Virus record (IMG/VR): IMGVR_UViG_3300010885_035892
Location: 1 to 20,785 of that record
DNA: 20,785 nucleotides
Strand: one strand, 5' to 3'
From: a virus
Shown here: positions 2,709 to 20,586 of the stretch, in pieces
How the letters are laid out: each line of letters starts with the position of its first letter
Numbering within the stretch: position 1 is the first letter of the stretch
Program-made: the position numbers and the translations under genes
Notes under the pieces: generated by a model
What the model saw: the letters and a program-made list of their open reading frames with translations, nothing else
What the model was told of the DNA's origin: nothing
Databases searched by the model: none

Positions 2709-2754
2709 CTAAACCGCCTTGTTGTTTTATGGTCACAACTAAACGGCTCAGTGT

Positions 2755-18609: not shown

Positions 18610-19221
18610 TCAGTTTTTGTATCGTATGCTAATTGTTCCGTTCTTTATCTTGCCTGACAATATTCTTTTCGCTGTAGAGTGGGCTACTCCGAGCTGTCTT
18701 GCTGCTTCACCTACAGAGGGAAATTCTTTACCAGTGTGGTTGCAGATAACTGCGCGGCCTACTGATTTCTGAAGTGCCTCTCTCTTGTTTTTCTTCCACT
18801 CTTCGTCTTGGACAACCTTAGAGCCCAGTTTGGCGTAAGCCATTTTTCTTCTTGTTTCTTCCGAGTAGCAGTTAGTTAGTCCTGCATTCCATGGTCTTTT
18901 TTCTTTCTTCATGGCGGCCATCTTGTGTCTTGATTCTCTATTGTACGTTACAACTCCATTTGGTGAATTGTAGCCGTCAGTCATCGCACGATAGTCCGAA
19001 ACGTACTTTCCTTCTTTCTCTTGAGCTTCTTCGATCGTTTCGGCCGTATCAATAGCCGACCATTCCCAATCAACCACTTCGCTTTCTCTTAGCGCATTTG
19101 CAAACTTAGTGAGTGCGCTGTTCGAATAATGACTATCGATTCGATCTAACAGGTGGCGCTTGGTCTGCCCGATGTAGCTCTTTCCGGTTTTCTTATTAAG
19201 GGCCCGATAAATAGTGAACAT
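18610..19221 (-). mobile_element. Free-standing GIY-YIG homing endonuclease gene
   Basis: 203 residues. The N-terminal GIY-YIG domain is recognisable from IYRALNKKTGKSYIGQT (Ile4-Tyr5, Tyr16-Ile17-Gly18), Arg27 in LLDRIDSH, a Glu at 68 or 70 before GKYVSDY, and GYNSPNG. The middle (SEETRRKMAYAKLG, about 120-133) resembles the NUMOD3 DNA-binding motif. The C-terminus (GKEFPSVGEAARQLGVAHST, then AKRILSGKIKNG) resembles the NUMOD1 helix-turn-helix of I-TevI-type and Seg-type enzymes. Such enzymes cut a phage lacking the gene so that repair copies it in. It sits between the capsid and head-protein genes with its own strong AAGGAG six bases before ATG 19221 and a possible promoter, unlike the tightly coupled neighbours. 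Confidence 0.88.
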
Positions 19222-19242
19222 AGATTTCTCCTTGTTCTGTCT

Positions 19243-19271
19243 ATTATACCGAGCCCCCAGTTTTAATGCAA
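19243..19271 (-). promoter_or_regulatory. Candidate sigma70-type promoter for the homing endonuclease gene
   Basis: On the minus strand, TTGCAT (19271-19266) and a perfect TATAAT (19248-19243) are 17 bases apart, the ideal spacing. The -35 box matches the consensus at only three positions. Transcription would start near 19236 and give a short leader of about 15 bases with AAGGAG. It lies in the 68-base gap after the capsid stop, where no terminator is visible. Confidence 0.45.
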
Positions 19272-19289
19272 CACTAGCTAAGTACTTGA

Positions 19290-20501
19290 TTAGATAGAAA
19301 AATTACCGTTATATCCTGGCGCTGTGCATCCAATTTGCTTGTAACCACCAATACGGATTTCGTTAACGTCTGCGTTAGAAACGCGGAGCATGCGGTTGCC
19401 GTCTTGGTCGAGGATGCGGATAGACTTCTTCAAAGAAGCGAGCTTCCAAGTGTCCATTTGAACAACCCAGAGACGATCAGAAGGAAGAGTCATATCAGCG
19501 AGAACAGTAACGGGCAGTTTGCCGCTGTTCACTTTGATACCGCGGAAACCGACGCCTACGTCTTTCGCCATAACGTCAACGTATTGAACCTTTGAGCCCA
19601 AGCTATTTTCAAGCTCAGCGAACTTTTCAAAGTTCAAGAAAGCGTAATCAGCGCGAGAGCCTTCACGGTGAACGCGTTTCATGGCCTTGACCAAAGCTTC
19701 TTCGATGGGCAGGTTGCTGAAGTCATCGCTAACACCGGCCAGACGAACAGGGTCAACAGTGCGGTCAACACCGAAGAAAGGAGAGCTGGTCAAAGATGAG
19801 CTAGGATCAACAATCCAAGCTGGGAAGCCTGACATCTTCAGGTTAACGTCGCCCTGGATGGCAATAAAGTCGCTTACAGTGGCAGCAGCAACGCCAGTGC
19901 TGATGTTTACGTTAGTGGTCAAAACACCAGTGTTACGGTTAACCGCTACGATGGTCAAAGAGCCTGAACGAGCAGCAGAGCCGCGAGCCGATACCAATTG
20001 AATTACCTGGCCAACTTCGAAGCGAACAATTTCTTCAACGTCGCGCAAGGGAAGGCTTGTAGAAGCAAGTGTGGTAGAGGAAGCGAGCTGAGCGATACAT
20101 CCTGTACCGTCTTCTGCAAGTGCGATTGCTTCGGAAGTGATGGCGGCTTTGTGAGCGCCTTCGATTTCGTGCTGAAGAGTGCGGACGAATGCGCCGGCAT
20201 CTTTCTCAGCAGCTTCCATGGCTTCGTTGCTAATTTGGGCAATCGCGTAATCGCTTACACGAGAGAGCAAGAAGGCAACGTTCTTAGTGTAATCGGAGTT
20301 AGCTTGTGCAGTGCTGAAGGTAGCAGAACGACCAGAGTTGTTGCCGTACTTCAGAGGGCACTTCATGTAATCGCCGTAGAAACCTTCGTCGCGAGGCATG
20401 AGTGCAAGCAACGGGTAGTCATGGTAGGTGACGTCGTTAGGCAAACCAGAAGGGTAAAGGGTCTTTAAGAGTGCGCCAAGATTGGCAACTGTAGCTGTCA
20501 T
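19290..20501 (-). CDS. Major capsid protein (HK97-fold type)
   Basis: 403 residues. The helical N-terminal segment (VANLGALLKTLYPSGLPNDV, then NPLL-like DYPLLALMPRDEGF) is the usual opening of this capsid group. A spine-helix region (ISNEAMEAAEKDAGAFVRTL) follows. Residues about 152-217 form an inserted beta domain (FEVGQVIQLV, SLTIVAVNRNTGVL). The C-terminal half returns to the capsid fold (FLNFEKFAELENSLGSKVQY; RLWVVQMDTWKLASL) and ends in GYKQIGCTAPG. It assembles the icosahedral shell. A GGAGG ribosome binding site six bases before ATG 20501 is very strong but lies inside a long hairpin. The scaffold-like gene is upstream, as in T7 gene 9-10 order. Confidence 0.87.
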   Translation of the reverse strand: MTATVANLGALLKTLYPSGLPNDVTYHDYPLLALMPRDEGFYGDYMKCPLKYGNNSGRSATFSTAQANSDYTKNVAFLLSRVSDYAIAQISNEAMEAAEKDAGAFVRTLQHEIEGAHKAAITSEAIALAEDGTGCIAQLASSTTLASTSLPLRDVEEIVRFEVGQVIQLVSARGSAARSGSLTIVAVNRNTGVLTTNVNISTGVAAATVSDFIAIQGDVNLKMSGFPAWIVDPSSSLTSSPFFGVDRTVDPVRLAGVSDDFSNLPIEEALVKAMKRVHREGSRADYAFLNFEKFAELENSLGSKVQYVDVMAKDVGVGFRGIKVNSGKLPVTVLADMTLPSDRLWVVQMDTWKLASLKKSIRILDQDGNRMLRVSNADVNEIRIGGYKQIGCTAPGYNGNFSI

Positions 20502-20504
20502 GTA

Positions 20505-20580
20505 AGTCCTCCAAGGACAATTAGTTGATGGTTAACGGTTTCCCGCTGTTTTGCCCCATCAACTAACTGCCTTGGGGACT
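20505..20580 (-). promoter_or_regulatory. Long RNA hairpin enclosing the capsid gene's ribosome binding site
   Basis: The arms 20556-20580 and 20505-20531 pair over 25 positions in the minus-strand RNA, with two single-base bulges (opposite T20510 and A20517) and one G-U wobble at 20567/20520. The innermost 11 bp (CCATCAACTAA with TTAGTTGATGG) are perfect. The 24-base loop contains CGG-GAAA-CCG, a small stem with a GNRA tetraloop. The Shine-Dalgarno GGAGG (20512-20508) is paired in the stem except its bulged A. No T run follows, so it is not an intrinsic terminator. It may control or process the capsid message. Confidence 0.8.
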
Positions 20581-20586
20581 AATGAT

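Follow-up and report, generated by a model that had tools for sequence, protein, structure and literature searches.

A hairpin predicted to mask the ribosome binding site of a phage major capsid gene, possibly opened by translation of the upstream gene

Introduction

Capsid and scaffold-type proteins need to be produced in balance, and a major capsid gene whose ribosome binding site is buried in RNA structure raises the question of how its translation would be started. Such a case was found in a 20,785-base virus record (IMGVR_UViG_3300010885_035892; the whole record is called the window here), in which almost every gene lies on the minus strand. A first-pass annotation had described a long stem between a scaffold-like gene and the capsid gene, with the capsid Shine-Dalgarno (SD) sequence inside it, and had offered RNase III cleavage, timing by a protein or by upstream translation, and an attenuating switch as explanations. 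The hairpin is known from this one genome and was read from its sequence alone. Here we describe its predicted structure, compare it with the same position in related phages, and weigh the ways in which the capsid start might be released.

Results

The gene downstream of the hairpin encodes a SU10-type major capsid protein. Its product matches the major head protein family PHROG 14242 (E 5e-19) and, below threshold, SU10_MCP; the position of its AUG is borne out by alignment with relatives, and a SU10-type adaptor gene follows at 17891-17211. The co-oriented upstream gene, which stops at UAA 20589-20587, is represented by its last 65 residues (Table 1). These align to the last residue with the product of the capsid-upstream gene of the related locus L008 (34% identity) and weakly with that of L001, where the homologue sits between the portal and capsid genes, the usual location of a scaffold gene. 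Such a position and the charged sequence of the product make the earlier name "scaffold-like" a putative one; it has no family match behind it, and none was found for the L001 and L008 homologues.

Elsewhere in the window, a GIY-YIG homing endonuclease gene (18610-19221, minus strand) is inserted directly 3' of the capsid gene, a place where L001, L005 and L008 have none. A promoter-like TTGCAT-17-TATAAT sequence, seen by eye and below the scan threshold, lies right before it (19222-19289, minus strand). At the contig edge, 29 copies of a CGGCAA/CGGCTA hexamer fill positions 1-174 and adjoin a plus-strand, exonuclease-like gene.

Table 1. Coordinates of the features discussed, in window positions
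Feature	Position	Strand	Remark
Second SD-masking hairpin	about 2709-2753	-	before metallophosphoesterase gene; -20.2 kcal/mol, z -5.1
Major capsid protein gene (SU10-type)	19290-20501	-	AUG 20501-20499
Hairpin-forming intergenic region, 85 nt	20502-20586	-	between upstream gene and capsid gene
Main stem, 3' arm with bulged U20517 and A20510	20505-20531	-	pair table
Capsid Shine-Dalgarno GGAGG	20508-20512	-	in stem, 6 nt before AUG
Apical part (asymmetric 8-nt loop, GAAA-capped inner stem of 5 pairs, and AA)	20532-20555	-	
Main stem, 5' arm	20556-20580	-	pair table
Upstream (scaffold-position) gene, C-terminal 65 codons	20587-20785	-	ORF; truncated by window end

Folding confirmed the 25-pair stem, its two bulges and the mini-stem capped by a GNRA loop (GAAA). 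The length of 85 nt given previously was also right, although the intergenic region lies at 20586-20502 rather than 20499-20583. The main stem (20580-20556 paired with 20531-20505) has zero mismatches, a single G-U pair (20567-20520) and bulges of one base each; a second G-U pair lies in the inner stem (20547-20543 with 20538-20534). Within the SD, A20510 is bulged out, and all four G residues (G20512, G20511, G20509, G20508) form pairs. The partner of the SD region is the first 11 nt of the 5' arm (AGUCCCCAAGG), which start 6 nt past the upstream stop. Four outer pairs (20585-20582 with 20501-20498) take in the whole capsid AUG, and the stem reaches exactly from just past the upstream stop to the capsid start codon.

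As a sequence feature the hairpin is real and far beyond chance. The minus strand folds at -45.8 kcal/mol over 98 nt (z -9.1), and the energy-model check proposed earlier for 20600-20480 (121 nt) gave -47.7 kcal/mol (z -7.0). No shuffled sequence folds as stably, and when the whole minus strand was scanned in 10-nt steps, no other 100-nt stretch matched the stability of the hairpin. The plus strand is nearly as stable (-43.5 kcal/mol, z -5.2), which weakens the earlier argument that a G-U wobble on one strand and an A-C mismatch on the other favour minus-strand RNA; the wobble exists, at two positions rather than one, and the direction of transcription rests on the co-oriented genes. An assembly artefact is unlikely because the stem carries bulges and a 24-nt apical part and the reading frame resumes at a conserved start. 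An intrinsic terminator was rejected: the stem is followed by UACAUG and not by a U-run, and the region is absent from the list of the terminator scan.

How strongly the capsid start is masked was expressed as an opening cost, the predicted energy needed to free the region -15 to -5 of a start; the values were predicted thermodynamically for 37 C, and the temperature of the phage's host may differ. For the capsid SD the cost was 19.3 kcal/mol (about 18-19 across calculations), against 0.6-13.3 kcal/mol for the other 20 called starts of the window (median of all 21, capsid included, about 5.7 kcal/mol) and at most 13.1 kcal/mol for 407 starts in related loci. As a prediction, masking of the capsid SD, claimed in the first-pass annotation, is thus strongly supported. 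In the related loci, 80 capsid starts and 327 other starts had medians of 3.94 and 3.99 kcal/mol (p 0.52), which rules out a general masking of capsid starts in the group. Since no start there reaches 14 kcal/mol and masking is no stronger at capsid starts than elsewhere, the mask belongs to this phage and not to its family.

The comparison with some 80 loci of capsid relatives led to the same view. The hairpin is absent from the nearest relative, L001 (74% identical capsid, 10-nt gap before the capsid gene), as well as from L008 (65%, 20-nt gap) and L002 (54%, 21-nt gap); the gap is 9-12 nt in L003, L004 and L009-L016, and most of the 80 relatives have no hairpin at the capsid start. This rules out a conserved capsid operator and indicates that masking is unnecessary for this capsid gene in general. 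It also means that the relatives provide no compensatory base changes. A lack of pairing in related phages, combined with the lack of a processed 5' end here, had been named in advance as refuting the claim; for the nearest relatives the first part is what was found, yet two loci have unrelated-looking SD hairpins at the same place. In L005 (50% capsid identity) the gap is 101 nt and CTCCATTAGTT...AACTAATGGAG flank the SD (z -3.9); its close kin do not have this hairpin. In L063 an 11-pair outer stem covers the capsid SD (z -3.6). Inside the SD-masking hairpin of L005, the capsid leader (960-1050) also holds an inner hairpin followed by TTAATTTTTT, a terminator-like arrangement. Weaker hairpins at the capsid start of L061 and L084 may be due to chance, as they were selected from some 80 loci.

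When 70 other loci, among them L005, were searched with a covariance model built from the window hairpin, none had a match at the capsid start; the weak matches in L016 and L013 lie within the capsid gene. Because the sequences differ and the model misses them, the relatives' hairpins may be independent, or they may have diverged too far for a common origin to be recognised. The window and L005 hairpins have TTAGTT/AACTAA in common, but as L005 escaped the model, homology is not claimed. No additional hairpin-bearing relative emerged when close relatives of L005, L063, L061 and the metallophosphoesterase were sought. The virus record contains no second copy of the hairpin, its sequence matched no phage and gave only 23-nt chance matches to plasmids, and the 20-base apical pattern did not occur in viral contigs; together with the covariance result, this rules out a mobile or repeated element. 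A known RNA family was likewise ruled out, as no Rfam family reached its gathering score and a relaxed threshold returned only sub-threshold chance matches to microRNA-like hairpins.

The intergenic region measures 85 nt here and 10-21 nt in near relatives, and so lineage-specific an element could also be non-adaptive: a recent inverted duplication or template switch between the genes would cover the SD by accident and be tolerated because upstream translation or RNase III opens it. A young palindrome would likewise be a near-perfect stem that lacks homologues, and the capsid SDs of the 80 relatives, no more masked than other SDs, also speak for this reading. We nevertheless consider this origin rather unlikely, given that the stem extends exactly from the upstream stop to the start codon and that unrelated-looking hairpins cover the capsid SD in L005 and L063 too.

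Our preferred, though tentative, explanation is that the hairpin is a cis-acting mask of the capsid start, opened mainly by ribosomes finishing the upstream gene, that is, translational coupling by RNA unfolding. On free polycistronic mRNA the predicted burial of SD and AUG would largely block capsid initiation. A ribosome translating the upstream gene and terminating there would cover or melt the SD-pairing arm, and the SD and AUG, about 75-85 nt downstream, would become exposed without being occluded by that ribosome. Capsid synthesis would then depend on synthesis of the upstream partner.

The geometry of the locus is what such coupling would call for: the downstream ribosome binding site is predicted to be sequestered in RNA structure, and the upstream reading frame, which ends in register with its L008 homologue, does so where a ribosome reaches that structure (the outer pairs begin at 20585 and the SD-pairing arm at 20580, the latter close enough to the stop for a terminating ribosome to cover or melt it). 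A spacing of 85 nt is too long for simple termination-reinitiation and suits RNA unfolding. When the first 10, 12 or 14 nt past the stop were held single-stranded, the predicted SD cost fell from 18.3 to 10.2, 7.2 and 4.5 kcal/mol, so that an ordinary cost is reached only with at least 12 nt cleared. Clearing 12 nt or more would take the full reach of a typical ribosome footprint or slightly more. Among the explanations offered in the first-pass annotation, timing by upstream translation is the best geometric fit, on these predictions. From the geometry and the outlier strength of the mask we infer both repression and ribosome-driven opening.

The two similar cases are not explained in this way. 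In L005 and L063 the masking arm is distant from the stop and the SD cost stays at 13-15 kcal/mol with 12 nt cleared; a single release mechanism does not cover them, and our confidence in a shared one is lowered. Processing by host RNase III could in principle serve these hairpins as well. In the window, a cut in the stem by this enzyme would give the capsid mRNA a new 5' end and release its SD, and any 5' end from 20570 onward would bring the opening cost down to about 4-6 kcal/mol, so the anatomy alone does not separate the routes of release. Twenty-five almost unbroken pairs with two one-base bulges are sufficient in length for RNase III, which calls for a stem of about two helical turns or more. 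The stem has no conserved motif, however, and no Rfam family matches it at gathering score; we regard this route as unlikely, if a serious contender.

Truncated transcripts would also have an accessible SD if they arose from a promoter. In phage T4 (e, soc, 49, I-TevI, segB) and in Aeh1 (mobE), SD sequences are masked by hairpins and internal late promoters are present (PMC3014915, PMC2988022), and with similar timing here read-through transcripts would be masked, while a promoter in or near the hairpin would give short, translated transcripts lacking the 5' arm. The capsid SD does lie in a stem, as in those genes. A scan for sigma70-type promoters found no match in or near the hairpin, and no motif of at least 11 bases is common to the hairpin and the rest of the window. 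A search of seven relatives for the phage RNA polymerase family PF00940 had no match, but its control was silent too. T4-type timing seems very unlikely to us.

The apical inner stem-loop is dispensable for masking, and it might instead be recognised by a protein: the capsid or scaffold protein or a host factor would bind the GAAA-capped stem and stabilise or melt the hairpin for feedback. A capsid-binding operator might be kept in relatives with 50-75% identical capsids, but this element is not, and the covariance model found no counterpart at the capsid start of the other loci. We give such an operator the least credence of the explanations considered.

A second hairpin in the window has a similar placement (Table 1). 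It covers the AAGGCGG SD of the metallophosphoesterase gene, and a 44-codon reading frame (2889-2755, stop UAG 2757-2755) ends directly before it. Its SD costs 5.4-7.4 kcal/mol to open in longer context, far below the capsid SD, so that it supports coupling modestly.

Discussion

In summary, the capsid hairpin appears to be a translation switch specific to its lineage. It belongs to a known class, that of hairpins which mask a ribosome binding site, here probably for translational coupling, and the principle has long been known; what is noteworthy is that the hairpin sits on the capsid gene of a tailed phage and is so patchily distributed. By tying capsid initiation to ribosomes of the upstream gene, the hairpin would enforce a balance between the two proteins without a regulator, which could benefit the phage, and its patchiness would show how quickly close relatives can gain or lose this control. 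More broadly, individual phages of this SU10-type capsid group could repeatedly and independently gain unrelated hairpins that lock the capsid start and are tied to upstream translation or processing. We find this generalisation distinctly doubtful; if true, an unregulated start would be turned into a switch, and RNA control of the capsid gene would turn over rapidly.

Several known systems resemble the locus in part. T7 early mRNA and the lambda N leader are RNase III-processed phage leaders in which, as here, a phage gene is preceded by a long stem with bulges; cleavage in the window is hypothetical. The T4 late-gene and Aeh1 mobE hairpins similarly bury the SD, with or without the start codon, within a stable stem that forms on a co-transcribed mRNA, whereas the window hairpin has no recognisable internal promoter or T4 late promoter and the gene is that of the major capsid protein.

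Parallels for coupling are rpmI-rplT, f1 VII/IX and MS2 coat-lysis. There, too, a hairpin holds the downstream ribosome binding site and has its 5' side at the upstream stop codon or close to it. Unlike in these RNA-unfolding systems, the long stem of the window is wholly intergenic and precedes a tailed-phage capsid gene, and coupling is a prediction. In f1 VII/IX, coupling persists while the stop is within the hairpin, and in rpmI-rplT a translating ribosome can prevent the inhibitory structure without occluding the downstream ribosome binding site (PMC12548453). The spacing in this E. coli pair is +52 nt, and the capsid locus shares with it a wide positive spacing, of +85 nt.
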